This document shows, piece by piece, positions 3,030 through 58,209 of a DNA stretch of 64,000 nt; within the stretch, counting starts at the first letter, position 1; every line of letters starts with the position of its first letter. The notes beneath the pieces are model-generated. The model did no database searches. It saw only the letters and a program-made list of their open reading frames with translations, and was not told the DNA's origin. The stretch spans positions 2,046,001-2,110,000 of the forward strand of contig NZ_JAUHQA010000001.1 in assembly GCF_030418295.1 (NCBI RefSeq), written 5' to 3'. Source of the DNA: Demequina muriae (GTDB lineage: Bacteria > Actinomycetota > Actinomycetes > Actinomycetales > Demequinaceae). The position numbers were made by a program, and so were the translations under genes.

Positions 3030-4298
3030 GTGCTCGATGACCAGACCATGCGCATCGTTCTCGGCGGCGTGACGCTGACGGTCCTCATCCTGTTCTATGT
3101 GGGCGTCTACCGGCCCACGCGATCCAGTTTCTCCGGATGGTGGACGCTTGCGCTGCTGTGCGCGGCCATCGCGCGTGCGCTCCTGCTGCTCAACGGCAGC
3201 GGCCTGCAGGTGGTCACGAACCCGGCATCGATCCTGCTCGCGGTGATCGGTGTCACCTGCGTGTGGTTCGCGACGCGGTCGCTGCGCCGTGAACGACTGC
3301 CGCGGTGGCTGCTCGGCGTGGCCCCCGTCGCCATCCTGGTGCCGAAGCTCGTCGAGGGTGCTGCTGGTGGGGTCCTGGCGGGGAATGGTCCGCTGTTCCT
3401 TTACATGTCCGTGATGTTCGGGGCGGGGACCGTGGAGACGTGGCTGGCGTGGAGAGCGCGGCGCGCTCTAGCCGAGCCCGCTCGCAATGGGGAGGCAGTG
3501 GTCGCTCTTCTGGTGACCGCCATTGCAGGAACCGTGTTCGCCACGTTCTACGTGCTCCGCGCGATCACCCACGTGGTGGAACGTCCGAGCAGCGGTGGCT
3601 TCGAGCTGACGGGGTTCACCGGCACGGACAGCATCGTCCTGCTGGTCTGTCTCGTGGGGGTCACGTTCAGCGTGTCGGCCGTGAGCTGGGACCAGCAGAC
3701 GCAGGAACTTCGTCGCCGCGCGATGCATGACGATCTCACCGGCCTCCTGGACCGTATGGAGTTCCGTCTGCAGGCCGAGCGTGCATTCGAGGACGCGCGG
3801 TCGAGCGGCCGGGGGGCAATGGTGGTGGTGGCCGATCTCGACCAGTTCAAGGCGGTCAACGACGTTCACGGCCATGCGGCGGGGGATGGCGCACTCGTAG
3901 CGTTCGCCACCGCACTGAAGGACTCCGTCCGCGCCGGAGAAGTGGCAGGACGGCAGGGTGGCGACGAGTTCGGCATGGTGCTCCTCGACGAGGACGACGC
4001 CGGTGCGTTGGCGCGTCTGAGGGCCATCGGCGACGCGTATGCCGCACATGCGAACAGCGTCGACTTCCCGCTCCCCACGGTGAGCTTTGGGTTTGCCTCA
4101 ATCGACGACGGCGATTCGCTCTGGGAGGTGTACGAGCGGGCGGACCTGGCGATGTACGTGGCCAAGGCAGACGGCCGCGACCGAGCGGTGAGGTACTCCG
4201 CCGACGTCGCCCTGCGGGAGAGGCGCGAGCCGAGTGCGCCGGTGACTTCGGACAGCGCGACTCCGGACAGCGCGCCTCCGGCAGCGGCGGTGCCGTGA
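3030..4298 (+). CDS. Membrane-bound GGDEF diguanylate cyclase, paralog 1
   Basis: The 422-residue protein has about seven hydrophobic segments in residues 8-216, then a cytoplasmic GGDEF domain. The metal/nucleotide region reads VVADLDQFKAVNDVHGHAAGD and the active-site loop is canonical GGDEF at residues 310-314. It should make c-di-GMP from two GTP. The inhibitory-site position reads RAGE rather than RxxD, so product inhibition may be altered. The C-terminus carries a low-complexity tail rich in Ser, Pro and Ala. The GTG start is fixed by the -10 hexamer six bases before it and by alignment with its two neighbours. No recognised periplasmic sensor domain is present; the membrane part is probably the sensor. 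Confidence 0.92.
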   Translation: MLDDQTMRIVLGGVTLTVLILFYVGVYRPTRSSFSGWWTLALLCAAIARALLLLNGSGLQVVTNPASILLAVIGVTCVWFATRSLRRERLPRWLLGVAPVAILVPKLVEGAAGGVLAGNGPLFLYMSVMFGAGTVETWLAWRARRALAEPARNGEAVVALLVTAIAGTVFATFYVLRAITHVVERPSSGGFELTGFTGTDSIVLLVCLVGVTFSVSAVSWDQQTQELRRRAMHDDLTGLLDRMEFRLQAERAFEDARSSGRGAMVVVADLDQFKAVNDVHGHAAGDGALVAFATALKDSVRAGEVAGRQGGDEFGMVLLDEDDAGALARLRAIGDAYAAHANSVDFPLPTVSFGFASIDDGDSLWEVYERADLAMYVAKADGRDRAVRYSADVALRERREPSAPVTSDSATPDSAPPAAAVP

Positions 4299-4355
4299 TG
4301 GCGGCCGATGCGTGCGTCGTCCGACATGCGTAGGTGACCCTGGTGCGTGGCGTGA

Positions 4356-4402
4356 GTCACCGGGTGCTCGTGTCGCGCCGCGCGTCAGCGTAGGTTAGGC
4401 GC
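4356..4402 (+). promoter_or_regulatory. Promoter of second GGDEF gene
   Basis: TAGGTT (4391-4396), within CAGCGTAGGTT, is six bases before the GTG at 4403, and GTCACC begins at 4356, 35 bases upstream. The GTCAC here is half of the palindrome GTGAGTCAC (4352-4360). This repeats the architecture of the neighbouring GGDEF promoters. Confidence 0.6.
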
Positions 4403-5650
4403 GTGCTCGACGATCAGACCATGCGCTTCGCGCTCGGTGCCGTGTCATTGACGGTGCTCGTGCTGTTCTACCTGGGCGTCTACCGGCCCACGCGGTCCGG
4501 CTTCTCCGCCTGGTGGAGCGTCTCGCTGCTGCTCGCCGGGTTGGCGATCCTGCTCCTCCTGTTCAACGACAGTCCCGTGCGGGCGGTGACCTATCCGATG
4601 TCGACCGCGCTCGCCGCGGCGGGGTCGACCTGCGTGTGGTTCGCGATGCGCTCGTTGCGGAGCCGGCGACTGCCGCGGTGGCTGCTCGCCGTCGGGCCGC
4701 TGGCGATCCTGGTCCCGGCGTCGATGGCGACACCTGATGAGAGCGGCATGGCGACCACGGGGCCTGTGTCCTTGTACATGGCGACGATGTTTATTGCGGG
4801 AGCGGCCGAGGCGTGGAAGGCGTGGCAGACGCGGCGCGTGAGCGCTGACGGCGAGCCGAACGCTGAGGCCCTGGTCGCGCTCCTCGTGATCGCCATCGCG
4901 GCCACCGCACTCGGCTCGTTCTACTCGCTCCGGTTCGTCATGCTGATGGTGGCGGGCCCGGACAGTGGGGCCTTCGAGCGCACGGCCGGCTCGGCCCCCG
5001 AGGACGTCACGCTGCTGGTCTGCATGGTGGCGGTGACGTTCAGCGTCTCGGCCGTGGGCTGGGATCAGCAGACCCGAACGCTGCGACGCCTGGCGATGAA
5101 GGACGACCTGACGGGGCTGTGGGGGAGGTCGGAGTTCCGTGCACAGGCCAAGCGCGCCATGGCCGGAGCGCAGGCCAGGGGAGAGGGCGCCCTCCTGGTG
5201 GTCGCGGACCTCGATCACTTCAAGGACATCAACGACACGCACGGCCACGCCGCGGGGGACAGCGCGCTGATGGTCTTCGCCGCGGTGGTGACGAGCCACC
5301 TCCGGCCAGAGGAGTGCGCGGGACGCCTGGGCGGCGAGGAGTTCGGCTTGGTCCTTCTCGACGTCGATGACGCCGATGCGCTGGTGCGTCTCCGCGCTCT
5401 CAGCGACGATTTCGCGTCACGGTCGACTCGGTTCGACTTCCCGCTTCCCACAGTCAGCTACGGCGTGGCCGGGCCCCGCGACGGCGACTCCGTGGACCAG
5501 GTCTTCGAGCAGGCCGACCAGGCGATGTACGTGGCCAAGGCGCAGGGCCGCGACCGGGCGGTGCGGTACACCGAGGAGATCGGCCGGCGGCCCAGCAACC
5601 TGCTGCGCCGGAGGCAGAGCGACCGCGAGGACGTGGCCGAGCCCCTCTAG
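4403..5650 (+). CDS. Membrane-bound GGDEF diguanylate cyclase, paralog 2
   Basis: The 415-residue protein is colinear with the upstream paralog: it opens MLDDQTMRFALGAVSLTVLV, has about seven membrane segments to residue 216, then a GGDEF domain with the active variant GGEEF at residues 310-314 and DLDHFKDINDTHGHAAGD upstream. The inhibitory position reads RPEE. It ends with a basic stretch (NLLRRRQSDR) shared with paralog 3 but not paralog 1, so paralogs 2 and 3 are the closer pair. It has its own promoter, so the gene may be expressed separately. It is predicted to make c-di-GMP at the membrane; the signal sensed is unknown. Confidence 0.92.
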   Translation: MLDDQTMRFALGAVSLTVLVLFYLGVYRPTRSGFSAWWSVSLLLAGLAILLLLFNDSPVRAVTYPMSTALAAAGSTCVWFAMRSLRSRRLPRWLLAVGPLAILVPASMATPDESGMATTGPVSLYMATMFIAGAAEAWKAWQTRRVSADGEPNAEALVALLVIAIAATALGSFYSLRFVMLMVAGPDSGAFERTAGSAPEDVTLLVCMVAVTFSVSAVGWDQQTRTLRRLAMKDDLTGLWGRSEFRAQAKRAMAGAQARGEGALLVVADLDHFKDINDTHGHAAGDSALMVFAAVVTSHLRPEECAGRLGGEEFGLVLLDVDDADALVRLRALSDDFASRSTRFDFPLPTVSYGVAGPRDGDSVDQVFEQADQAMYVAKAQGRDRAVRYTEEIGRRPSNLLRRRQSDREDVAEPL

Positions 5651-5691
5651 TCCGATGCCGTGCGCTCGCGTGCGGCGCCCGGGTGAGGTAC

Positions 5692-5738
5692 GTCACGCGC
5701 TCTGCGTGGCGTGCCCTACGTCAGCGTAGGTTGGCCCC
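5692..5738 (+). promoter_or_regulatory. Promoter of third GGDEF gene
   Basis: TAGGTT (5727-5732), within TCAGCGTAGGTT, is six bases before the ATG at 5739. GTCACG begins at 5692, again 35 bases upstream, and GTGA at 5683-5686 mirrors the TCAC. The conserved layout across three copies argues that both elements are functional. Confidence 0.6.
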
Positions 5739-6986
5739 ATGTTGGACGACGAGACCATGCGCATCGCCCTGGGTGCGGTGTCGCTGGTGGTTCTCCTGTT
5801 GTTCTACCTGGGCGTGTATCGGCCCACCCGGTCCAGTTTCTCCGGCTGGTGGACGCTGTCGCTGTTGAGCGCGGGCACCTCGAGCACGTTGCTGCTGTTC
5901 AACCGCGGCGAACTGGAGCTCGTCGTCAATTCCGGATCGATGGCGTTGGCTGCGGTCGGCGCCACGTGTGTGTGGTTCGCGACGCGGGCTCTGCGGCGTG
6001 AGCGGCTGCCGCGATGGATATTGGGCGTCGCGCCCGTCGCGATTCTGGTGTCAGCGGTCGGGTATGAGCCTGTCGGAGACACGTGGGTCGATCATGGCGC
6101 GCTCAGCCTCTACATGGCGGTGATGTTCGTCGCGACCGCTGTGGAGATGTGGATGGCGTGGAAGGCGCGGCGCGCCATGGCTCAGCACGCACTGAATCGT
6201 GAGGCACTCGTGGCGCTCCTGGTGATCGCCATCGCGGGGAGCGCCCTCGCAGCGTTCTACGTTCTGCGCACGGTGATGAACGTCGTCTTCGGACCGGCGA
6301 GCGATGCGTTTCAGATGGTCGTGGGTTCCAGTGCGGAAGACGCGCTCTTGCTGGTCTTCTTGGTGGCCGTCACGTTCAGTGTCTCGGCGATCGGGTGGGA
6401 TGAGCAGGCACACGACCTGCGGAGCCGGGCCATGCACGACGACCTCACCGGACTGCTGGGCCGGACGGAGTTCCGTGCTCAGGCCAAGGGCGCGCTGTCC
6501 GGAACGGAGTCCAGCGGGGAACGCGCGCTGCTGGTGGTGGCGGACCTGGACCACTTCAAGGACATCAACGACACCCATGGTCACGCCGCGGGGGATCGCG
6601 CGCTCATGGCCTTCGCTGCGGTGCTGACGGACCACCTCCGGCCAGGGGAGCGCGCGGGAAGGCTCGGCGGCGAGGAGTTCGGCTTGGTCCTCCTCGACGT
6701 GGATGACGCCGAGGCGCTGGTGCGGCTGCGCGCCATCAGCGACGACTTCGCGGCGCGAACGAGCACGTTCGACTTCCCGCTTCCCACGGTCAGCTACGGC
6801 TTCGCCGGGCCCCACGACGGTGTTCCGGGCGATCAGGTCTTCGAAGAGGCGGACCTGGCGATGTACGAGGCCAAGGCGCAGGGCCGCGACCGGGCCGTGC
6901 GGTACACCGAGCAGATCGGCCGGCGGCCCAGCAACCTGTTCCGCCGCAGACACGGCGACCAGGAGGACGCAGTCGAGCCCCTCTAG
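5739..6986 (+). CDS. Membrane-bound GGDEF diguanylate cyclase, paralog 3
   Basis: This 415-residue third copy is colinear with the others: N-terminus MLDDETMRIALGAVSLVVLL, about seven membrane segments, then a cyclase domain with GGEEF at residues 310-314. The inhibitory position reads RPGE. The C-terminal tail (NLFRRRHGD) matches paralog 2. The membrane halves diverge more than the catalytic halves by eye, as expected if each copy senses something different. It is convergent with the thiamine transporter operon, 23 bases from its ATPase gene. Diguanylate cyclase activity is predicted from intact catalytic motifs. Confidence 0.92.
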   Translation: MLDDETMRIALGAVSLVVLLLFYLGVYRPTRSSFSGWWTLSLLSAGTSSTLLLFNRGELELVVNSGSMALAAVGATCVWFATRALRRERLPRWILGVAPVAILVSAVGYEPVGDTWVDHGALSLYMAVMFVATAVEMWMAWKARRAMAQHALNREALVALLVIAIAGSALAAFYVLRTVMNVVFGPASDAFQMVVGSSAEDALLLVFLVAVTFSVSAIGWDEQAHDLRSRAMHDDLTGLLGRTEFRAQAKGALSGTESSGERALLVVADLDHFKDINDTHGHAAGDRALMAFAAVLTDHLRPGERAGRLGGEEFGLVLLDVDDAEALVRLRAISDDFAARTSTFDFPLPTVSYGFAGPHDGVPGDQVFEEADLAMYEAKAQGRDRAVRYTEQIGRRPSNLFRRRHGDQEDAVEPL

Positions 6987-7009: not shown

Positions 7010-7837
7010 TCAGCAGTCGAGGGCGGCGAGCAGCGTGTCGCGGTCGTAGCGGTCGCCGGATCGCGCTCGAGACTCGTGCACCACCCGCCCCGGCCGGTCC
7101 GAGAGCACCACGATGCGGTCCGCGAGCATCATCGCCTCGTCGATGTCGTGCGTGACCAGCACCACCCCGGAGCCCGCGGCGGCCGGCTCCTCAGCGTCGA
7201 GAGCCGTGGCATCGGCGGCACGCTCGGTCAGACGGACCGACGCGAGCCAGGCGTTCATGCGCCGTCGGGTGACCGGGTCGAGCCCCCCGAACGGCTCGTC
7301 GAGCAGCAGCACGGGGCGCTCAGCGAGGCAGGTGCGGAGCAGCGCAAGACGCTGCCTCATCCCCCCTGACAGTTCGTGCGGCCAGGCCCGCTCGAACCCG
7401 CCGAGGCCGAACTCATCGAAGAGCCGCCGCGCCCGCGGGAGGGCCCGCTCCCGAGGGACCCCGGCCGCGATGGCACCCACCATCGCGTTCGGCAACGCCC
7501 GGCGCCACGGCAGCAGCCCATCTCGTTGAGGCATCCATGCCGTCGCCCGACGGCCACTCGCGTCCCGCGGCACGGCGATCTCGCCCGTGACTCGTGCACG
7601 TGGATCCAGCAGCCCCCCGAGCGCGCGCAGCAGCGTGGACTTGCCGCATCCGGAGGGCCCAAGGACGGCGACGAACTCGCCGTCCCCCATCGCGAGGTCC
7701 AGCCCATCCAGCACCTCGAGACCGCGCTCGCCGCGGCGCGACGGAGGGAAGGTGATGCTCAGGTCACGCACCGCCAGGACGGGCGCGGAGACCGACCCGG
7801 CCCGCGCATCGGCCGGGGTGACGGTGACGTCGGTCAT
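7010..7837 (-). CDS. ABC transporter ATP-binding protein of thiamine-pyrimidine importer (ThiZ-like)
   Basis: The 275-residue protein has Walker [13 protein letters not shown] signature LSGGMRQRL, Walker [12 protein letters not shown] and a switch His in VTHDIDEA, so it is a complete ATPase of the nitrate/sulfonate/thiamine-precursor import subfamily. Its ATG at 7837 overlaps the binding-protein stop (ATGA at 7834-7837), showing coupling. It is last in a four-gene minus-strand operon controlled by a TPP riboswitch. An insert rich in Ala/Asp/Glu sits between Walker B and the switch His (LTERAADATALDAEEPAAAG); the basic motifs are unaffected. Confidence 0.9.
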   Translation of the reverse strand: MTDVTVTPADARAGSVSAPVLAVRDLSITFPPSRRGERGLEVLDGLDLAMGDGEFVAVLGPSGCGKSTLLRALGGLLDPRARVTGEIAVPRDASGRRATAWMPQRDGLLPWRRALPNAMVGAIAAGVPRERALPRARRLFDEFGLGGFERAWPHELSGGMRQRLALLRTCLAERPVLLLDEPFGGLDPVTRRRMNAWLASVRLTERAADATALDAEEPAAAGSGVVLVTHDIDEAMMLADRIVVLSDRPGRVVHESRARSGDRYDRDTLLAALDC

Positions 7838-8862
7838 GGCTGCGAGGGCAGGAACGCGTTCGTCCACGCTCCGTCGACGTCGGGGTCGCCGTCGAGCATG
7901 TCGCCGTCCGTGAGCCACTGCGAGAACTCCGTCCAGGTCGATTCCTGCTGCACGCCCCAAGCGTCCGGAGACGCGGCGTACTCGTAGGCGAGCCACTGGG
8001 CGCTCGCGGTGACCAGCTCCTGGTCGAGCTCGGGAGCGACGTCCATGAGCGCATCGGCCGCGGCCTGGGGGTCCTCCATGGCTGTCGCGTACCCGCGCGC
8101 GGTGGTCTCGACGAACGCGCGGACCACCTCGGGCGAGCCGTCGATGGTCTCTCCGGTGGTGGCGAGCAGCGGCGTGTACCAGTCGGGGATGCAGTCGAAC
8201 CAGTCTCGGAAGGCGATGGTCGAGACGTCCAGGCCGTCGACCTCCCCAAGTCGCACCGTGTCCCAGGCGTCGAAGACCCACGCGGCATCGAACTCGTCCT
8301 GCGTGAGGCCGATGCGGAAGTCATTGCTCACCAGCGGCGCGTGTTCCACCAGCGCTGGGTCGCCGCCGTCGCATGCGACCAGGCTCGAGATGATCGTCTC
8401 CTCCAGGTCTGACCCGTATGAGCCGTAGCGCTTGCCCTCGAGGTCGCGCGGTCGGGTGATGCCGTCCTCTGCGAGCGAGAGCAGCGACGAGGTGTTGTGC
8501 TCGATGACGGTGGCGACGGACACCACGTCGGCCCCGGCGGCGCGGGCGGGGAGCAGCCCTTCCGCGACGGAGAACGCGAAGTCTGCCTGCCCGGCCGCGA
8601 TCAGCTGCAGGCCCGACGTCTCACCGGGCTCGATCACTGTGACGTCCAGCCCGGCGTCCTCGTACCAGCCGTTCTCCAGCGCGAGGTAGAGGCCGGAGTG
8701 GTTGGTGTTGGGCGTCCAGTCGAGCACCACCGTGACGGGGGTCGACTCGGCGGGGGAGTCGGTGGGAGCGATCGCTGCCGGGGCGCTGGAGCAGGCGGCG
8801 AGGGTGATGGCTGTGCCTGCGGCAAGGGCGGCGAGCGATGCGGTGCGGAACAGGGGGTTCAT
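7834..8862 (-). CDS. thiY: NMT1/ThiY-type substrate-binding lipoprotein for pyrimidine precursors of thiamine
   Basis: The 342-residue protein has a lipoprotein signal (hydrophobic residues 7-22, lipobox LAAC with Cys24) followed by the family hallmark LDWTPNTNHSGLYLALENGW. This matches ThiY-like proteins that bind formylaminopyrimidine/HMP precursors of thiamine. AGGAG lies seven bases before the ATG. The operon sits behind a TPP riboswitch, which supports the thiamine assignment over sulfonate or nitrate. It should deliver its ligand to the permease encoded upstream. The exact pyrimidine ligand is inferred from the family. Confidence 0.88.
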   Translation of the reverse strand: MNPLFRTASLAALAAGTAITLAACSSAPAAIAPTDSPAESTPVTVVLDWTPNTNHSGLYLALENGWYEDAGLDVTVIEPGETSGLQLIAAGQADFAFSVAEGLLPARAAGADVVSVATVIEHNTSSLLSLAEDGITRPRDLEGKRYGSYGSDLEETIISSLVACDGGDPALVEHAPLVSNDFRIGLTQDEFDAAWVFDAWDTVRLGEVDGLDVSTIAFRDWFDCIPDWYTPLLATTGETIDGSPEVVRAFVETTARGYATAMEDPQAAADALMDVAPELDQELVTASAQWLAYEYAASPDAWGVQQESTWTEFSQWLTDGDMLDGDPDVDGAWTNAFLPSQP

Positions 8863-8914: not shown

Positions 8915-9685
8915 TCAGTGGCGCGCCACGGGGGCCCGCCACGGGGTGGCGACGCGCCTCAGCAGCGTGATCGCGGCGACCATGACTGCGGAAAGCAGCG
9001 CGATGAGCAGGATTCCGACGAAGATCTGATCGACGGCGTACGCCTTGCGGGAGCGCTGGATGAAGACGCCGATGCCGGACTCGCCCGCGAGGTATTCCGA
9101 TACCACCGCGGCGCCTACGGCGTAGGTGGCCGCGATGCGCAGGCCCGCAAGCGCACCCGGGATGGACGCGGGCAGTCGCACCAGCCACAGCTGGTGGGCA
9201 CGACCGCCACCGAGGCCGGCCACCGTGTCCGAGTACTCGGCGTCCACCTCGCGTATTGCCGCGGTGGCGGCGACCAGGACGGGGAAGAACACGGTGAGTG
9301 CGACCAGCACCACCTTGGAGGTGAGGCCGAAGCCCGCCCACAGGATCATCAGCGGCGCCAGCACGACCGTCGGGATGGTCTGGCTGAGCAGTACCACCGG
9401 CCGGGCGACGTGGCCGACGGAGGCCACGGCCGAGGTCAGCACGGCCAGCAGCCAGCCCAGTGCGGTGCCCAGGGCGAGCCCCAGCACCGCCTCGGTGGCG
9501 GTCGTCGCGATGTGCCGTCCGAGGGTGGGTGCCTGGTCGACGGCCGCGCTGACCACCTGGGAGGGGCTGGGCAGCACGAACTCGGGCAGCTCGCCCAGCC
9601 GCACCGATGCCTCCCAGGTGACCAGCAGCAGCACGACCGTGGCGGTGCCGATGAGGGCGGCGTGGCCTCGGCTGCCGCGCGTCAT
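8915..9685 (-). CDS. ABC transporter permease of thiamine-pyrimidine importer (ThiX-like)
   Basis: The 256-residue protein has about six hydrophobic segments and the inner-membrane permease loop EYSDTVAGLGGGRAHQLWLVRLPASIPGALAG (quoted elements EYSDT, GLGGG and LPASIPG), typical of the BPD transport family that partners NMT1-type binding proteins. Its ATG overlaps the stop of the thiamine-binding gene (ATGA at 9682-9685). Together with the ATPase at 7010 and binding protein at 7834 it forms a complete importer. Riboswitch control indicates repression when thiamine pyrophosphate is plentiful. Confidence 0.9.
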   Translation of the reverse strand: MTRGSRGHAALIGTATVVLLLVTWEASVRLGELPEFVLPSPSQVVSAAVDQAPTLGRHIATTATEAVLGLALGTALGWLLAVLTSAVASVGHVARPVVLLSQTIPTVVLAPLMILWAGFGLTSKVVLVALTVFFPVLVAATAAIREVDAEYSDTVAGLGGGRAHQLWLVRLPASIPGALAGLRIAATYAVGAAVVSEYLAGESGIGVFIQRSRKAYAVDQIFVGILLIALLSAVMVAAITLLRRVATPWRAPVARH

Positions 9686-9975
9686 CGGCGGTGCTTGCTC
9701 ACCAGATCCTGGACGCTCGGCCCGCGGTCACCGGCCGCGCCAGAGACCTTGATGACGGACAGGCAGCCTTCCGCTCCGGCAGCGATGGTGGACTCATGGA
9801 CCTGGCGCAGCAGGGCCCAGACCTGGTCGGGCGTGCCCTCGAACGTGGTGCCCATGCCGCCCACCTCGTAGGACAGGCCGGAGGCCTCGATGGTGGCGAT
9901 GGCCGCGTCGACGTGGGCGTAGCGGTCGTCGGGCGTGCCGACAGGGCGGGGAAGGACTTGGATCTCGGCGATCAC
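9682..9975 (-). CDS. MTH1187-family thiamine-binding protein
   Basis: The 97-residue protein starts IAEIQVLPRPVGTPD and contains LSYEVGGMGTTFEG, hallmarks of the MTH1187/YkoF-like family of small proteins reported to bind thiamine. It has no signal peptide and is probably cytoplasmic. The GTG at 9975 is chosen because AAGGAG lies seven bases upstream; a longer in-frame reading from 10017 lacks such a site. It is the first gene after the TPP riboswitch and is coupled to the permease. It may be a carrier or sensor for the imported vitamin. Confidence 0.87.
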   Translation of the reverse strand: MIAEIQVLPRPVGTPDDRYAHVDAAIATIEASGLSYEVGGMGTTFEGTPDQVWALLRQVHESTIAAGAEGCLSVIKVSGAAGDRGPSVQDLVSKHRR

Positions 9976-10097
9976 GGGTGACTCCTTGGCGTCGGACCTG
10001 GGGTCCGCACGGCGCACAGTCAGCCGTCGACGGCTCGTGAGGGCGAGTGCGCTCCAGGGCCACGGCAGGCCCCACGATGCTCACGCCCGTGCCGTCG

Positions 10098-10192
10098 ACA
10101 CGTCCTTACGCTGGCATTACCCAGGTCAAGTTCTCGGGTCGACGGCGCGCTGGTGGCCGTCCTCTCAGCTCGGTTGCCCCGAGCTCCCCGCG
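10098..10192 (-). promoter_or_regulatory. TPP riboswitch (thi box)
   Basis: Read on the minus strand, the segment begins GGGGAGCTCGGG, contains the invariant CTGAGAGGACGG (pyrimidine-sensor arm) and then ACCTGGGTAATGCCAGCG followed by TAAGGA (pyrophosphate-sensor arm). These are the conserved cores of the TPP aptamer in correct order and spacing. It lies about 120 bases upstream of the MTH1187-type gene, so thiamine pyrophosphate binding should switch off the four-gene importer. Whether it acts on transcription or translation is not clear from sequence. Confidence 0.95.
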
Positions 10193-10203
10193 TTTGCCCT
10201 TGC

Positions 10204-10233
10204 ATCGTAGCCACATCGCGGCGAGGAGGTCCA
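10204..10233 (-). promoter_or_regulatory. Probable promoter of the thiamine transporter operon
   Basis: On the minus strand TGGACC (10233-10228) and TACGAT (10209-10204) are 18 bases apart and end just before the riboswitch. They match 4 of 6 positions each to the -35 and -10 consensus. This would start transcription close to the aptamer's first base. Confidence 0.45.
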
Positions 10234-10301
10234 GGCGCAGCGGAGACCGGGGGCTCTGGGGCGGACGGCCGATGCGCGGGTCGCTCCGGCGCCGCGCCCG
10301 G

Positions 10302-11060
10302 CTAGCTGGCGAGCGCGCCGGAGAAGACCTGCCACGCCAGAGCGGTCTTGGCCACCAGGCTGAGGACGATGTAGGCGCGCTCGCCGCGCAGGTAGTTCGC
10401 CCATTTCCCCTTCGCGCGGTACTGCAGCCACTGCACCACCGCGAACGTGTTGAAGAACACGAACAGCGAGATGATGATCCCCCACACGAATCCGGGCACA
10501 GTCTCGTCGCTGGTGTTGCCGGGGCCGATGAGGTTGATCGCGATGATGAGCCACGGCACGATTCCCACCATGCTGCCGAAGATGAAGGGCAGCAGGTCGC
10601 CGTCGCCGGGAGTCGCATAGCGCTCCTGCAGCCAGCCGAACAGGATCATGCTGGCGTTGACGGTGAAGAGGCCGGCGAGCGCGGTGAACTCGGAGATGCC
10701 GTTGAGCTGCAGGATGAGCACGATCATGATCGATGACGACAGCGAGTACTCGACCCAGCGGAAGGTGTTCCGGTTCTCGCGAAGTCCCGCCGTGTAGCGC
10801 GGGAAGAACATCGGTGAGATCACGAGGAAGTGGAACACCGCAGAGAGCAGCAGGAACCCCGCCACCGCGTACCCGATGTTGATGTCGAGCAGAGTCACCG
10901 GTTCGCCGAACGCATCGGACCCGGGTGGGCCGTTGAGGTACGTCGCACGGACGGGCAGGGTGGCGTCGTTGGCGAGCGCCACGATGGCGACGAACGAGGC
11001 GAGGTGAAGCAGGCCGGCGATCAGGTTGAACGGGCGGAGCTTGGCGAGCGCGGTGTCCAT
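10302..11060 (-). CDS. Heliorhodopsin
   Basis: The 252-residue seven-helix protein carries the heliorhodopsin hallmarks: Lys238 in SLVAKTALAWQVF for the retinal Schiff base, Glu104 in RWVEYSLSSS as counterion, plus His19, His77 and Ser234. Each sits three or four positions before its equivalent in the prototype 48C12 protein (Lys241, Glu107, His23, His80, Ser237). Helix 3 begins RWVEYS, absent from type-1 rhodopsins, so this is not a proton or ion pump of the classical family. The start at 11060 is chosen because AGAGGG lies about five bases upstream; an in-frame ATG at 11075 has no such site. No retinal synthesis gene is in the window. Its function is unknown; light sensing or regulation of a partner is usually proposed. 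Confidence 0.95.
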   Translation of the reverse strand: MDTALAKLRPFNLIAGLLHLASFVAIVALANDATLPVRATYLNGPPGSDAFGEPVTLLDINIGYAVAGFLLLSAVFHFLVISPMFFPRYTAGLRENRNTFRWVEYSLSSSIMIVLILQLNGISEFTALAGLFTVNASMILFGWLQERYATPGDGDLLPFIFGSMVGIVPWLIIAINLIGPGNTSDETVPGFVWGIIISLFVFFNTFAVVQWLQYRAKGKWANYLRGERAYIVLSLVAKTALAWQVFSGALAS

Positions 11061-11227
11061 GATGTCCCTCTTCATTGAGCGGTGAACCGACCTGTTGTCC
11101 GCTCATAACCTCGCTGATAGCCGCCGCATTCCCGCCTCGCGTCACGGGTCGTCTGGGGGTTCTCCCCGAGACGAAGTCAGGGGAACGGTCATCCACGTGG
11201 GGGACGGGCGCGGCGGGGGCATCGCGG

Positions 11228-11239
11228 TAGGTTCGGACC
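11228..11239 (+). promoter_or_regulatory. -10 element of ABC-2 operon, leaderless
   Basis: TAGGTT (11228-11233) ends six bases before the ATG at 11240, the same hexamer and spacing as the three GGDEF genes. No GTCAC element is found 35 bases upstream here, so that element is not simply part of every TAGGTT promoter. Confidence 0.5.
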
Positions 11240-12160
11240 ATGCCCGCCATCGCCACGCAAGGCCTGACGAGGTCCTTCGGCCCCGTGACCGCGCTGTCAC
11301 AGCTCACCGTCGAGATGCCCACCGGGGTGGTAGGACTCGTGGGCGCCAACGGAGCCGGCAAGTCGACCTTCATCAAGATCCTTCTTGGTCTGCTTCCCCC
11401 CACGTCGGGGACTGCGACCGTCCTGGGATTGGACTGCCTCTCGGACGGTCTCAAGATCCGTGAGGTCGTGGGCTACATGCCGGAGAGCGAGTGCCTGCCG
11501 CCCGACGTCTCGGCCACCGAGTTCATCGTGCACATGGCGCGCATGTCCGGGCTGCCGACGGACGTGGCGCGGGAGCGCACCGCGGACACGCTGCGGCACG
11601 TGGGGCTGTACGAAGAGCGCTACCGTCCCATCGGCGGCTACTCCACGGGCATGCGCCAACGCGTCAAGCTCGCTCAGGCGCTCGTGCATGACCCCCAGCT
11701 GGTGCTGCTCGACGAACCCACCAATGGGCTCGACCCCGCGGGCCGCGACGACATGCTCGAGCTCATCCGGCGCATCAGCGCGGACTTCGGCATCTCCGTG
11801 GTCGTGACGTCGCATCTGCTGGGCGAGCTCGAGCGCATCGCCGATCACATCGTGTCCATCGAGGCGGGCGTGCTCCAGCACTCCACCTCCACGGCCGCGG
11901 CCACGGAGTTCAGCGGAATGATGCTGGTCGAGGTGACCGACCGCGGGCCGGAGGTGGTCGAGCGGCTCCACGCGCTCGGGGCCAAGGTGACCACCGGCGC
12001 TCAGGCCCACAGTTTCGTGGTGGCGATCAAGGACGAGCAGGTGCTCGACGACGTGCGTAGCGTGGTGGTGGACCTCGGGGTCGGCCTCATCCGCATGCAG
12101 CGCGGCCGTCACCACCTCACCGAGATGTTCTCGACGCCGCAGGAGGCGCTCCATGGCTGA
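11240..12160 (+). CDS. ABC-2 type transporter ATP-binding protein A
   Basis: The 306-residue ATPase has Walker A GANGAGKST, signature YSTGMRQRVKLAQAL, Walker B LVLLDEPTNGLD and a C-terminal extension of about 80 residues typical of drug/antibiotic or cell-envelope exporters (CcmA type). It is the first of four genes in the order ATPase, permease, ATPase, permease. It overlaps the next gene by eight bases. Substrate cannot be assigned; these systems export drugs, lipids or peptides, and some serve membrane maintenance. Confidence 0.9.
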   Translation: MPAIATQGLTRSFGPVTALSQLTVEMPTGVVGLVGANGAGKSTFIKILLGLLPPTSGTATVLGLDCLSDGLKIREVVGYMPESECLPPDVSATEFIVHMARMSGLPTDVARERTADTLRHVGLYEERYRPIGGYSTGMRQRVKLAQALVHDPQLVLLDEPTNGLDPAGRDDMLELIRRISADFGISVVVTSHLLGELERIADHIVSIEAGVLQHSTSTAAATEFSGMMLVEVTDRGPEVVERLHALGAKVTTGAQAHSFVVAIKDEQVLDDVRSVVVDLGVGLIRMQRGRHHLTEMFSTPQEALHG

Positions 12161-13091
12161 CCACACGCCGCCGCTCGGCGCCGCCCCCGGTGGCGCGGAG
12201 CCCGCCGCCCCGCAGTCTCAGGGCGTCATCCACGACATCGGCTTCCGGCACTACGACGGACCCCGCCTCGGCCGCGGCTGGATCGTCAGGTCGCTGCTCG
12301 TCGAGACCTTCCGGGGAGTGTTCGGCTTCGGCCGCCCGGCCAAGGCCAAGATCATGCCGTGGATCCTCGTGGGCATCCTGATGGCTCCGCCGCTGATCTT
12401 CGCGCTCATCGCGGTGCTGCTGGGGCTCGATGAGCTGCCGACGTCCTATACCGAGTACCTGCCGACCATGGGGTTCGTGGTGTCGCTGTTCGTCGCCAGC
12501 CGCGCTCCCTACTGCGTCTCCCGCGATCTTCGCCACGGCGTGATGCCGCTGTACCTGTCAAGGCCGATCCATCGCGACGACTACGTGCTCGCCAAGTTCG
12601 CGGGCATGGCGCTCGCACTGTTCTCTGTGCTGGCCGCCGCGCAGACCCTGTTGTTCGTCGGCGCTCTGCTGGCCAAGCTGCCGGTGGGCGCCCAGATCGT
12701 CGGCTACGCGCAGGGCCTCGTCGCGTCGGCCCTGGTCGCGCTGGTGCTCAGCGCCATCGGCCTCGTCCTCGCGGCGCTCACGCCTCGACGCGGGATGGGG
12801 GTGGCCGTGATCATCACGGCGCTCGTGGTGCTGGGCGGCGTCGGGACCGTTGTATCCACACTGCTGACCGAGAACGGGAGCGCGACCCTCGGCGGGTACC
12901 TCGCGGCGATCGACCCGTTCCTGCTGGTCGACGGCATCGCGGTGTCATGGTTCGGTGTGGACTCGGCGATCGGCCTCGACGCCGATCCCGGTCCTCTGGG
13001 CGGGCTGGTCTTCATGGTGTGGGCCGCCGCAATCGTCGCGGGCGGCATCGCTCTGCTGATGCGTCGCTACAGGAAGGTGGGCATCGCATGA
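12153..13091 (+). CDS. ABC-2 type permease A
   Basis: The 312-residue protein has a soluble N-terminus of about 65 residues (with HYDGPRLGRGW) and about six hydrophobic segments after residue 70. The loop CVSRDLRHGVMPLYLSRPIHRDDYVLAKF (quoted elements SRDLRHG, LSRPIHR, LAKF) is the ABC-2 family motif between helices 2 and 3. It overlaps both neighbours and pairs with the upstream or downstream ATPase. No lipoprotein or signal peptide is visible. Confidence 0.85.
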   Translation: MADHTPPLGAAPGGAEPAAPQSQGVIHDIGFRHYDGPRLGRGWIVRSLLVETFRGVFGFGRPAKAKIMPWILVGILMAPPLIFALIAVLLGLDELPTSYTEYLPTMGFVVSLFVASRAPYCVSRDLRHGVMPLYLSRPIHRDDYVLAKFAGMALALFSVLAAAQTLLFVGALLAKLPVGAQIVGYAQGLVASALVALVLSAIGLVLAALTPRRGMGVAVIITALVVLGGVGTVVSTLLTENGSATLGGYLAAIDPFLLVDGIAVSWFGVDSAIGLDADPGPLGGLVFMVWAAAIVAGGIALLMRRYRKVGIA

Positions 13092-13999
13092 GCACGCTTC
13101 AGCTGACGGGCGTCTCGCGCTGGTACGGCGACGTGGTGGCCGTCAACGACGTCACCATGACCGTCGGCCCCGGCGTGACCGGACTGCTCGGCCCCAACGG
13201 CGCCGGGAAGTCGACACTGATCTCGATGATGGGCGGGTTCCTTCCGCCCTCGGCGGGGACGGTCACGCTCGACGGCGCACCGGTGTGGCGAGACACCGAC
13301 GCCTACCGGTCCATCGGGTTGGTCCCGGAGACCGAGGCCATGTACGACATGATCTCGGGGTGGGAGTTCGTGCTCGCCAACGCGCGACTCCACGGGCTCG
13401 CTGACCCCGTCGCGGCCGCGCGTGCAGCTGTCGAGCAGGTGGACATGATGGACGCGAAGGACCGCGACATCTCCGGCTACTCGAAGGGCATGAAGCAGCG
13501 CATCAAGATGGCGACCGCGCTCGTTCACGACCCTGCCGTGCTGCTGCTCGACGAGCCCTTCAACGGCATGGACCCGCGCCAGCGCCTGCACCTCATGGAA
13601 CTGCTCCAGTCGCTCGCGGCACAGGGCCGCACCGTGCTGTTCAGCAGCCACATTCTCGAGGAAGTCGAGGAGATCGCCGGCACCATCGAGGTGATGGTCG
13701 CCGGCAGGCACGCGGCATCGGGGGACTTCCGGCGCATCCGCAAACTCATGACGCAGCGCCCGCACCAGTACACGATCCGCTCGAGCGACGACCGTGCGCT
13801 CGCGGCCGCCATCATCGCGGACGGTTCGGCGGACAGCGTCGACGTCTCGTCCGGATCGCTCGCCGTCCAGGCTGCGGACTTCGGGCGGTTCGTCGCGGCG
13901 CTGCCCCGCCTTGCGCAGGACGGCCAGGTGCGACTGCTGGAGGTCACACCCGCCGACGAATCTCTCGAGAGCGTGTTCGCGTACTTGGTGGCGCGATGA
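13088..13999 (+). CDS. ABC-2 type transporter ATP-binding protein B
   Basis: The 303-residue second ATPase has Walker A GPNGAGKST, signature YSKGMKQRIKMATAL and Walker B LLLDEPFNGMDPRQR, then FSSHILEEVE with the switch His. The start at 13088 overlaps the permease stop (ATGA). The two ATPases in the operon are only moderately alike, so the system may be two half-exporters or a heteromeric complex. Confidence 0.9.
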   Translation: MSTLQLTGVSRWYGDVVAVNDVTMTVGPGVTGLLGPNGAGKSTLISMMGGFLPPSAGTVTLDGAPVWRDTDAYRSIGLVPETEAMYDMISGWEFVLANARLHGLADPVAAARAAVEQVDMMDAKDRDISGYSKGMKQRIKMATALVHDPAVLLLDEPFNGMDPRQRLHLMELLQSLAAQGRTVLFSSHILEEVEEIAGTIEVMVAGRHAASGDFRRIRKLMTQRPHQYTIRSSDDRALAAAIIADGSADSVDVSSGSLAVQAADFGRFVAALPRLAQDGQVRLLEVTPADESLESVFAYLVAR

Positions 14000-14024
14000 C
14001 CGCGCACGGAATGGGGCCCACACG

Positions 14025-14753
14025 ATGAACGTCACCGTCATGCGACTCACCGCACGGGGACTGCTCGGACGGCGCCGGGCGCTGCTCCTGGTGATCCTGC
14101 CAGCGCTGCTGCTCGTGCTCGCTGCGCTCACCCGGTGGGCGTCCGACGGCTCGCCCAGCGCGTCCAGCATGCTGGCCAACGGCTTCGCCATGGGCACCTT
14201 GCTGCCGCTCATGTGCCTGCTGGTCGCCACCGGAGTCATCGGCGCCGAGATCGACGACGGCTCGATCGTCTACATGCTCGCCAAGCCACTCAAGCGCCGG
14301 GTGATCCTGTTTTCGAAGCTCGCCGTGGGCCTCGCCGCCGTCCTGCTGTTCGCGGTGCTCCCCATCATGGCGGCGGTGGCGATCGCCGGAGATGAGGGCG
14401 GTCAGCTCACGCTCGCCTTTGGCGTCTCCGCGGCGTTCGCCGCAGTCGCGTACACCGCCATCTTCGTGACGCTCGGCATCGTCACCCGCAACGCCGTGGT
14501 GTTCGGCCTGCTCTACGCCCTCCTATGGGAGACCGTGCTCGGCGGATACGTTCCCGGGATCCGCGCGGTGAGCGTGCGCCAATGGGCGCTGTCCGTAGGC
14601 GAGCAGATGCTCGGATCCCAGGCCGCCGAGTGGTCGTTCACATCCGAGGTGGGCATCGCGACCGGGCTGATCCTGCTCGCACTCACCACGGCGGGAGCCG
14701 TGTACCTGGGCGCGCGCAAGCTGAGCACGCTCACCCTGAACTCGGTCGACTGA
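14025..14753 (+). CDS. ABC-2 type permease B
   Basis: The 242-residue protein has about six membrane segments and the ABC-2 motif EIDDGSIVYMLAKPLKRR between the second and third. It starts 25 bases after the second ATPase and ends the operon. It is shorter than permease A because it lacks the soluble N-terminus. It probably pairs with ATPase B. The following hairpin terminates the operon. Confidence 0.85.
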   Translation: MNVTVMRLTARGLLGRRRALLLVILPALLLVLAALTRWASDGSPSASSMLANGFAMGTLLPLMCLLVATGVIGAEIDDGSIVYMLAKPLKRRVILFSKLAVGLAAVLLFAVLPIMAAVAIAGDEGGQLTLAFGVSAAFAAVAYTAIFVTLGIVTRNAVVFGLLYALLWETVLGGYVPGIRAVSVRQWALSVGEQMLGSQAAEWSFTSEVGIATGLILLALTTAGAVYLGARKLSTLTLNSVD

Positions 14754-14871: not shown

Positions 14872-16551
14872 CTAGTTGCGGTGCGCCTGGTAGTACTCGA
14901 TCAGCGACTGGGTCGAGGCGTCCTGGGCGGCGAATGCCCACTGGTCGCCCTCGACGGCGGGCGCGATCTGCACGGCGAGCTGCTTGCCGAGCTCCACGCC
15001 CCACTGGTCGAAGCTGTTGACGCCCCAGATCACGCCCTGCGTGAAGGTGATGTGCTCGTACAGCGCGATGAGCTGGCCGAGCACGGCGGGGGTGAGCGAC
15101 GGCGCGAAGATCGACGTGGTGGGCTTGTTGCCCGCGAACGTCCGTGCGGCCACCAGAGCGCCCGTGGTGCCCTCCTCCTCGACCTCCTCTGCGGTCTTGC
15201 CGAACGCCAGCGCCTTGGTCTGCGCGAGGAAGTTGGCGAGGAACAGGGCGTGGACGTCCTGGTCGCCGTCCTTGAGTTCGTACGCCGGGTTCACGACCGC
15301 GATGAAGTCCGCGGGGATGAGCGTCGTGCCCTGGTGAATGAGCTGGTAGAAGGCGTGCTGGCCGTTGGTGCCGGGCTCGCCCCAGAAGATCTCGCCGGTC
15401 TCGGTAGTCACAGGAGAGCCATCCCACCGCACCGACTTGCCGTTCGACTCCATGGTCAGCTGCTGCAGATAGGCAGGGAAGCGGTGGAGCTGCTGCGCAT
15501 AGGGCAGCACGGCGTGCGACTGCGCGCCCAGGAAGTTCACGTACCAGATGTTCAGCAGCCCCATGAGGACGGGGACGTTCTGCTCGAGCGGAGTCTCGGC
15601 GACGTGCCTGTCCACCGTGTGGAAGCCGTCGAGCAGCTCCCCGAACACGTCCGGTCCGAGCGCGATCGCGAGCGACAGACCGATGGCCGAGTCGACGCTG
15701 TAGCGGCCGCCCACCCAGTCCCAGAAGCCGAAGGCGTTCGTGGGGTCGATGCCGAATGCCTCCACCTTGTCGAGCGCGGTGGAGACGGCGACGAAGTGGT
15801 GCGCGACCGCATCGGCCCGCTTGTCATCGTCGGAGACGTCGACGCCCGCCTCGGCCAGCTGCTCCCAGAGCCAGGCGCGCGCCAGGCGCGCGTTGGTGAG
15901 CGTCTCGAGCGTGGTGAACGTCTTGGAGGCGACGATGAACAGCGTGGTCTCGGGGTCGAGGCCCTTGACCTTCTGGCCCATGTCGGTGGGGTCGATGTTG
16001 GAGACGAACCGCGCCGAGATGCCGGCGTTGGCGTAGGGCTCGAGCGCCTCGTAGACCATGACGGGCCCCAGGTCCGAGCCGCCGATGCCGATGTTGACGA
16101 TCGTCTCGACGCGCTTGCCGGTGACGCCGGTCCACTCGCCCGAGCGCACTCGGTCCGCGAACTCGTTGACGCGACCCAGCACCTCCTGGACGTCCTCGTC
16201 GATGTTCTGGCCGTCGACGACCAACTCGGGTGTCGCATCGGCCGGGCGGCGAAGCGCGGTGTGCAGCACGGCGCGGTCCTCGGTGGTGTTGATGTGCTCA
16301 CCCGCGAGCATGGCCTGGTAGCGGGTGAGGACTCCGGTCTCGTCTGCTAGCTTGACCAGCGACGCGATGACCTCGTCGGTGACGAGGTTCTTGGACAGGT
16401 CGACGTGGAGATCGCCCAGGGGGAGGCTCATGCGGCCTACGCGGCCCGCGTCGGCGGCGAACCAGCCGCGCAGGTCGGGCGCGAAGTCGCGCTGGTGGGC
16501 CTCGAGCTCGGCCCAGGCGGAAGTGGCGGTGGCATCAATGGGTGAGTTCAC
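14872..16551 (-). CDS. pgi: Glucose-6-phosphate isomerase
   Basis: The 559-residue protein matches the family length and motifs: [47 protein letters not shown] and the C-terminal [14 protein letters not shown]. It interconverts glucose-6-phosphate and fructose-6-phosphate in the cytosol. The GTG at 16551 is preferred because TAGCCT ends seven bases upstream (leaderless layout); the frame is open further upstream but that extension resembles no Pgi. It is monocistronic and shares its terminator with the convergent ABC-2 operon. Confidence 0.97.
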
Positions 16552-16630
16552 GCCTCCCAGGCTAGTGCCGTTCGGAGGCTGCGTCACCGGGACGGTGTGC
16601 CCAGCCGATCCGCTCGGTCCTTCGCCCCAC

Positions 16631-16678
16631 GAGTGCATGAGTGCAAGAACTCGCCCCGGACTGTGGGCTCATGCACTC
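16631..16678. repeat. Inverted repeat GAGTGCATGAG between pgi and a hypothetical gene
   Basis: GAGTGCATGAG (16631-16641) and CTCATGCACTC (16668-16678) form perfect 11-base arms separated by 26 bases. It lies upstream of pgi and downstream of the 16699 gene on the minus strand. It could be a weak terminator with a long loop or a pair of half-sites for a regulator. Confidence 0.6.
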
Positions 16679-56874: not shown

Positions 56875-58209
56875 CTACCGCTGGACGCGGGCCTTCGCGC
56901 GCCGGTTGAGCTCCAAAGCCCGCTCGCGCTCGACCTTGTGGTCGACCATCGGTGCTGGGTAGGCGGGGGTGTCCAGCTCTGGCACCCAGCGTTCGACGTA
57001 GCGTCGATGCGGGTCGAACTTGCCCGCCTGCGTCTCCGGATTGAAGACCCGGAAGTACGGGGAGGCGTCCCGGCCGGTGCCGGCCACCCACTGCCAGTTG
57101 AGCTGGTTCTGCGCATGGTCGTAGTCCACGAGCGCTCGCCTGAAGTAGTCGGCGCCGCGCTGCCACGGCAGGTGGAGGTCCTTCACCAGGAAGCTCGCGA
57201 CCACCATGCGCACGCGGTTGTGCATCCATCCCGTGGAGGCGAGCTGCCGCATTCCGGCATCCACGAGCGGGAAGCCCGTGCGGCCGTCACGCCACGCGAC
57301 GAAGGCCGCGTCGGCCTCCGCGCCGGTCGCCCAGTCGTCCTCCAGGACCACGGTCGAGAGCGACTCGCGCCGCGCCTGCGGCTCGTGCCACAGGGTGTCG
57401 GCATGGAACTCGCGCCAGGCGATCTCGGACTCGAAGGTGCGGGCCGCCGGGTGGTCCACGGCGCCGGTGAGCGCGAGCACGGTACGCGGGTGCACGAGCC
57501 CGAACGCCAACGCGCTCGACAGGCGGGACGTGGAGTCGAGGTCGGGGCGATCGCGCTCGTCTCCGTAGTGCTCGACTCTGTCGTCGACGAAGGCCTCGAG
57601 GTCCTCCCGTACGCGGCGCTCGCGGAACTCCTCGGTGCGCTCGAGGGGATCCTCCGCGTCGGCGTGTGCGGCGATCTGGTCGAGGTCGGCGTCGGCCGAG
57701 TCCCTCGGGAGGCGCACGAAGGCGTCGGCATCGGCGGGGGCGGCGGGGGAGCGCCAGCCGTGCTCGCGCCACGCGCCGCGATACGGCGTGAAGACCCGGT
57801 ACGGGGTGCCGTCTCCCTTGGTCACGCGCCCGGGCGCCACGGCATAGGGAGAGCCGATCATGCGCAGCTCGCGGCCGTCGGCCTCGAGAGCCGCGGCGAC
57901 GTGCTTCTGCTCGCGCACGCCGGACGGCGTGTACTCCTGCGACGCCCAGACCGCCGTCGCATCGGCCTGCCGGGCGGCTGCGAGGACCGCATCGGCCGCC
58001 TCGCCCCGGCGCACCGCGAGGGCGCCGCCCGTGTCCTCGCGCAGCGACCACAGCACGCGCGCCAGGTGAGCGCGGCGTCGGCCCGACCAGAAGTGCAGGG
58101 CCGGCGTCCACGCGAAGACGGCCGCCGCCGGGCTGCCTTCCTGGGCGGAGAGCAGCGCGGGGTTGTCGTCGAGGCGCAGGTCGCGGCGGGCCCACCAGAG
58201 ATGCGTCAT
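56875..58209 (-). CDS. phrB: Deoxyribodipyrimidine photolyase (class I)
   Basis: The 444-residue protein has the N-terminal photolyase domain (WWARRDLRLDDNPAL) and the FAD-binding domain with WREFHADTLWHEP, TGFPLVDAGMRQL, TGWMHNRVRMVVASFLVKDL, and the DNA/FAD-site DYDHAQNQLNWQWVAGTG. It repairs UV pyrimidine dimers using light. The ATG at 58209 is chosen over a GTG nine bases upstream. It is preceded on the same strand by an FMN reductase and a terminator hairpin, so it has its own promoter. Confidence 0.95.
   Translation of the reverse strand: MTHLWWARRDLRLDDNPALLSAQEGSPAAAVFAWTPALHFWSGRRRAHLARVLWSLREDTGGALAVRRGEAADAVLAAARQADATAVWASQEYTPSGVREQKHVAAALEADGRELRMIGSPYAVAPGRVTKGDGTPYRVFTPYRGAWREHGWRSPAAPADADAFVRLPRDSADADLDQIAAHADAEDPLERTEEFRERRVREDLEAFVDDRVEHYGDERDRPDLDSTSRLSSALAFGLVHPRTVLALTGAVDHPAARTFESEIAWREFHADTLWHEPQARRESLSTVVLEDDWATGAEADAAFVAWRDGRTGFPLVDAGMRQLASTGWMHNRVRMVVASFLVKDLHLPWQRGADYFRRALVDYDHAQNQLNWQWVAGTGRDASPYFRVFNPETQAGKFDPHRRYVERWVPELDTPAYPAPMVDHKVERERALELNRRAKARVQR

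Follow-up and report, generated by a model that had tools for sequence, protein, structure and literature searches.

Two described heliorhodopsins bear most closely on the protein analyzed here. The heliorhodopsin of Demequina lutea (DlHeR), named also in PMC9385722, was expressed in Escherichia coli and gave a pigment with an absorption maximum at 550 nm (PMC7807009). It comes from the same genus as our protein and from a different named species. The 48C12 heliorhodopsin, with structures 6su3 and 6su4 in the PDB, aligns with our protein over nearly the full length with one gap. As for partners, a heliorhodopsin binds glutamine synthetase (PMC9529153), and that of Ornithinimicrobium raises the activity of the exporter OmrDE (PMC11109279). 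In the latter paper 38.6% of 448 heliorhodopsins are predicted to share an operon, so a heliorhodopsin alone in its operon is common. Glutaredoxin and other redox neighbors have already been reported for the family, with GGDEF domains among the less frequent neighbors (PMC8612252).

The stretch of DNA analyzed here (the window) comprises 64,000 nucleotides of Demequina muriae. The features that enter the comparison are as follows, with positions counted from the first letter of the window:

10302..11060, minus strand: heliorhodopsin of 252 amino acids, apparently a solitary gene (PF18761, NF038020, match to PDB 48C12, key residues)
11240..12160, plus strand: ABC ATPase 1 of a divergent cassette (PF00005, E 9e-27)
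12153..13091, plus strand: ABC-2 permease 1 of the cassette (PF12679, E 1e-7)
13079..13999, plus strand: ABC ATPase 2 of the cassette, start approximate (PF00005, E 4e-26)
14025..14753, plus strand: ABC-2 permease 2, in the cassette of 12/12 genomes (PF12730, E 1e-8)
14872..16638, minus strand: phosphoglucose isomerase, regional landmark (PF00342, E 1e-200)
3030-4298, 4403-5650 and 5739-6986, plus strand: three tandem membrane GGDEF proteins, possible signaling partners (PF00990, E ~1e-32 to 1e-31)
7010..7864, minus strand: ABC ATPase of the thiamine operon, bystander, start approximate (PF00005, E 2e-22)
7834..8862, minus strand: NMT1/THI5-like substrate-binding protein, bystander (PF09084, E 2e-57)
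8915..9685, minus strand: ABC permease of the thiamine operon, bystander (PF00528, E 5e-26)
9682..10017, minus strand: thiamine-binding protein, bystander, start uncertain (PF01910, E 2e-15; TIGR00106, 36.9 bits, below the cut-off of 54.7)
10086..10200, minus strand: TPP riboswitch in front of the thiamine operon, likewise a bystander (RF00059)

The window protein matches PF18761 in a Pfam profile search with 318 bits (threshold 26.7, E 4e-95, positions 1-242 of 242) and NCBIfam NF038020 over its full length with 326 bits (cut-off 100), and its best solved relative in a PDB search is the 48C12 heliorhodopsin, with 343 bits. These matches bear out the identity given in an earlier note on this DNA, which had named assignment to another 7-TM family by a profile search as a possible refutation; the search assigned the protein to heliorhodopsin (PF18761). 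His19, His77, Glu104, Ser234 and Lys238 align with H23, H80, E107, S237 and K241 of 48C12, with an offset of 4 residues before the single gap and 3 after it, and both the five residues and the constant offset of 3 to 4 from the prototype had been read correctly. In an alignment of the window protein, 48C12 and the closest relatives found, all five are invariant in the rows that carry a letter (88 rows; 87 for the lysine). By alignment to 48C12, S234 and K238 form the SxxxK of helix 7, E104 is the glutamate counterion of helix 3, and the GPPG turn of the A-B loop that marks the 48C12 group lies at residues 44 to 47. The two proteins thus share the Schiff-base lysine, the counterion glutamate, both histidines, the serine and the GPPG turn, and they differ at Ser22 (Gln26 in 48C12) and Trp211 (Tyr214). 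Judged from its sequence, this is a true 48C12-type heliorhodopsin.

The loops contain 12 lysines and arginines on the inside and 1 on the outside, with loop borders drawn by hand, a pattern that by the positive-inside rule, the sole basis used here, fits an inverted topology with a cytoplasmic N terminus. Q145, Q210 and A237 are present, with position 210 placed by the constant offset; the corresponding residues are conserved among heliorhodopsins with absorption above 550 nm (PMC7807009). The mechanical open reading frame starts at 11075, but the ATG at 11060 is preceded by a GAGG ribosome site, and none of the seven relatives whose alignment reaches residue 1 has a start codon at the place of 11075. 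Because the ribosome site and all seven relatives agree, the gene start is placed at 11060, and the span of 10302 to 11060 given earlier is correct. A block like TTCACCGCTCAACG is found on the minus strand at 11073-11086, 13 to 26 bases upstream of this start. It is common, with changes, to several Demequina genomes and is perhaps a regulatory site. Four pairs of close homologues gave dN values of 0.026 to 0.081 and dS values of 0.37 to 0.80 (dN/dS, ~0.07 to 0.12), and the heliorhodopsin is under strong purifying selection.

Within the Demequinaceae, heliorhodopsin occurs in 11 of 47 genomes (9/44 in Demequina, 2/2 in a second genus and 0/1 in a third). On a quick tree built from four proteins, which covers 45 genomes and omits G045 and G046 because markers are missing there, its presence changes at least seven times, so that its distribution in the family is patchy. 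Identity to the window protein is as low as 53 to 56% for the heliorhodopsins of G032, G044 and G045. One assembly, G036, holds a full heliorhodopsin together with a second, partial copy at a contig end (L107:5254-5505, L106:54-806); the sequences share 72% and 77% identity with the window protein and represent either two copies or mixed strains. Neighboring genes differ among the 11 mapped Demequinaceae loci. The heliorhodopsin gene sits in a plastic stretch near the gene for phosphoglucose isomerase, which has a match in 40/47 family genomes, and its neighbors, including the thiamine operon, change between species.

The reading that we consider probable is that of an ordinary 48C12-type heliorhodopsin, encoded by a solitary gene in a plastic neighborhood and working as a retinal-binding green-light sensor that tunes a partner, with retinal that is external or comes from an unidentified enzyme. 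It draws on the family assignment, the conserved residues, the charge pattern, the changing neighbors, the selection on the gene and the lack of a match to two known retinal-forming families; from these we infer the transcript structure, retinal binding, color, sensing and partner. All-trans retinal would be bound to Lys238 with Glu104 as counterion, and green light would be absorbed near 550 nm. With its N terminus inside the cell, the protein would dimerize and, through its cytoplasmic loops, touch and modulate a partner protein; for other heliorhodopsins, such partners have been described in glutamine synthetase and an ABC exporter. Since the gene appears to be solitary, this partner would not be fixed by an operon. 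Retinal would be either imported from outside the cell or made by the enzyme postulated above.

One neighbor that recalls a described partner is the ABC-2 cassette, whose first ATPase gene starts 179 bp from the heliorhodopsin start in divergent orientation. By analogy with Ornithinimicrobium and OmrDE (PMC11109279), the heliorhodopsin might be a light-dependent regulator of this cassette (11240-14753), a proposal that we regard as rather unlikely. The O. cerasi pair is likewise actinobacterial and likewise joins a heliorhodopsin to an adjoining ABC transporter. OmrDE is, however, of a different build, a heterodimer whose subunits each combine membrane and ATPase domains, and the neighbors studied there are encoded in the same operon (PMC11109279), whereas the window cassette is divergent, of ABC-2 type, and has separate ATPases and permeases. 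A shared operon of heliorhodopsin and exporter was not found here, as the genes are divergent and their linkage is not conserved. A search with the first permease matched 12/47 genomes, and these comprise 8/11 heliorhodopsin genomes versus 4/36 heliorhodopsin-less ones (Fisher p 0.0002, uncorrected); in all 12 the four cassette genes occur together. In four of the eight genomes with both, the cassette lies within 2.5 kb of the heliorhodopsin, in two arrangements. Against this, a Pagel test on the 45-genome tree gave a likelihood ratio of 5.6 (chi-square p 0.23), which 12 of 102 simulations equaled or exceeded once runs in which one of the traits occupied under 3 or over 25 tips had been discarded; the independent pairs are too few to decide the matter. 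The co-occurrence is strong in raw counts and is not significant once ancestry is allowed for. The genes are also not close in G012 (1.4 Mb), G032 (another contig) and G044 (33 kb), while in G045, which has both, the contigs are too short to give a distance. In G039 the cassette has been retained together with its flanks, but no heliorhodopsin was found beside it, up to the point where the contig ends, or anywhere else among the contigs, and the heliorhodopsin genomes G001, G026 and G036 have no permease match. No cassette was found in 15 isomerase regions of heliorhodopsin-less genomes, which gave only ATPase matches of 36 to 37%. Permease relatives were found near none of 77 further heliorhodopsin loci, of which 46 are at least 10 kb long and one, L011, is itself from the Demequinaceae. 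The cassette is a neighbor that may matter after all.

The same may be said of the membrane GGDEF proteins, which are encoded at 3 of the 11 heliorhodopsin loci of the family. The three in the window carry a GGDEF/GGEEF motif and hydrophobic segments, and their cluster lies 3.3 kb from the heliorhodopsin; Demequina aestuarii has three such genes as well, at 4.6 kb. In another Demequina, G032 (L100:9982-12058), the gene directly downstream of a different heliorhodopsin (53% identity), beginning after 82 bp and sharing its strand, encodes a related membrane GGDEF protein (37% identity) with an intact motif, possibly in an operon. These arrangements raise the possibility that a membrane diguanylate cyclase receives its signal from the heliorhodopsin and that light would thereby set cyclic di-GMP, with the proteins at 3030-6986 as the window partners. 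GGDEF genes occur at 3/11 Demequinaceae loci versus 0/22 other Demequinaceae stretches (Fisher p 0.03), where the 22 are 15 heliorhodopsin-less isomerase regions and 7 cassette regions (3 from heliorhodopsin genomes), fetched for other reasons and not random. However, the window and D. aestuarii are sisters, and counting them once leaves two events (2/10 versus 0/22, p 0.09). In addition, the window genes are on the opposite strand beyond the thiamine operon, and such genes are absent at 8/11 Demequinaceae loci and at all 77 others. In favor of the idea, GGDEF domains are on record as less frequent heliorhodopsin neighbors (PMC8612252). We judge such signaling to be quite unlikely. The broader proposal, a Demequina heliorhodopsin that serves as the light input of cyclic di-GMP through diguanylate cyclases and takes its retinal from uptake or from a not-yet-known enzyme, is likewise put forward with little confidence. 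Among 80 relatives, the commonest neighbor cluster is a glutaredoxin, found at 14 of the 80 loci, always on the same strand and in 10 cases within 150 bp. It was found at none of the four Demequinaceae loci among these 80, many of which are short contigs.

The earlier note had seen no retinal-producing gene in the window, and this is now supported genome-wide, as none was found by the Blh and RPE65 models. The Blh family model matched 0/47 family genomes; elsewhere it matched 2 of 30 heliorhodopsin genomes reached through their loci (3 of the 30 being Demequina). An RPE65-type oxygenase is present in one of the 47, G041 (L097, G041:C44:15872-17242), which has no heliorhodopsin, and in 13/27 heliorhodopsin genomes from other loci; neither family was found in 12/27, mostly metagenome-assembled genomes that may be incomplete. 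A type-1 rhodopsin matched in 0/47 genomes, in a search run without a positive control, so that this absence is weaker. The search for carotenoid genes that the earlier note had proposed found lycopene-cyclase domains and, with the Blh and RPE65 models, no carotenoid cleavage gene. Above cut-offs, the carotenoid cluster of the window genome contains a crtI-family desaturase, two proteins with lycopene-cyclase domains and a prenyltransferase, while crtE- and crtB-like genes are indicated by matches below cut-off and by position. This is the C50 arrangement (PMC7734400), and the carotenoid genes look C50-type. The lycopene-cyclase domain is present in 44/47 genomes, each time accompanied by the prenyltransferase (44/44), and is missing in the three heliorhodopsin genomes G036, whose assembly is 85% complete, G044 and G045. 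The last two, which make up the second genus, thus have heliorhodopsin with no match to a lycopene-cyclase domain, which makes their retinal still harder to account for.

The sequence of the window genome thus shows none of the known ways of making retinal from carotenoid, because Blh matches 0/47 genomes, RPE65 is found in no heliorhodopsin genome of the family and the carotenoid genes are C50-like. It might be concluded that the protein functions in the absence of retinal or that the opsin is decaying, and the missing Blh and RPE65 matches and the C50-like cluster speak for this. Against it stand the invariance of Lys238 and its partner residues, the dN/dS of ~0.07 to 0.12 and the precedent of Aurantimicrobium minutum, which has similar carotenoid genes and neither blh nor diox1, yet makes retinal (PMC7734400). 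A. minutum resembles the window genome as an actinobacterium with a rhodopsin, C50 carotenoid genes and neither of these genes; it differs in having a type-1 proton pump as its rhodopsin and in the detection of retinal in its cells (PMC7734400). Other actinobacteria are presumed to take up retinal: most Luna-1 genomes have no blh and would rely on an external supply (PMC12422013). A retinal-free or decaying protein is very unlikely.

Movement of ions in light, as reported for a viral heliorhodopsin (precedent cited through PMC11109279), is highly improbable for the window protein, which belongs to the 48C12 group and not to the viral group; moreover, PMC8612252 states that as of 2021 heliorhodopsins had not been seen to pump ions.

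The earlier note had also looked for functional clues in a photolyase gene 46 kb away and in the next operon on the same strand. The photolyase domain is present at 57745-58200 on the minus strand, 46.7 kb from the heliorhodopsin. Photolyase matches occur in 44/47 family genomes (weak or fragmentary in G011, G012 and G035), with none in the heliorhodopsin-bearing G045, and the link was rejected on these grounds. The thiamine-precursor import operon and its riboswitch are likewise real (RF00059, PF01910, PF00528, PF09084). The covariance-model search scored the riboswitch at 59.5 bits against a gathering threshold of 54.3 over the full model (1-105), and it begins 102 bp after the heliorhodopsin stop codon on the same strand; for the ATPase, no specific NCBIfam model scored above cut-off among the best 25 matches listed. 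Among the 11 mapped Demequinaceae loci, however, the operon directly follows heliorhodopsin only in the window genome. An aldo/keto reductase gene intervenes in D. aestuarii, the operon lies ~3 kb upstream of heliorhodopsin in G034, and in D. activiva (G001) the two are on separate contigs. A close NMT1-like protein (at least 63% identity; three further weak matches of 35 to 37% not counted) is present in 4/11 heliorhodopsin genomes versus 10/36 heliorhodopsin-less ones (Fisher p 0.71), and the riboswitch precedes the thiamine operon also in the heliorhodopsin-less G003 and G016. Relatives of the thiamine-binding protein, the permease or the NMT1 protein occur near none of the 77 further loci, so that the comparison of homologues' neighbors that had been proposed beforehand gave no conserved link to thiamine import. 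By their titles, none of the publications found to name both heliorhodopsin and thiamine concerns a link. On inspection by eye, a promoter-like pair lies upstream of the riboswitch and would be the operon's own promoter, but a promoter consensus scan of 9900-11400 found no site. A tie of heliorhodopsin to thiamine precursor import, for example through cotranscription and the TPP riboswitch, is thus extremely improbable despite the shared strand and short distance; the link was rejected, and the thiamine neighbor looks accidental.

One heliorhodopsin of this genus, that of D. lutea, had been measured before, and the window protein is a new member of this known kind. With the thiamine link removed as a false lead, two testable leads remain, and the remaining interest lies in the source of the retinal and in the weak hint of a diguanylate cyclase partner. 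The heliorhodopsin is kept under purifying selection despite the lack of a Blh or RPE65 match in the heliorhodopsin genomes of the family. At least three heliorhodopsin-bearing members are recorded as NBRC strains, so the questions of retinal supply and of a GGDEF partner are both open to experiment.
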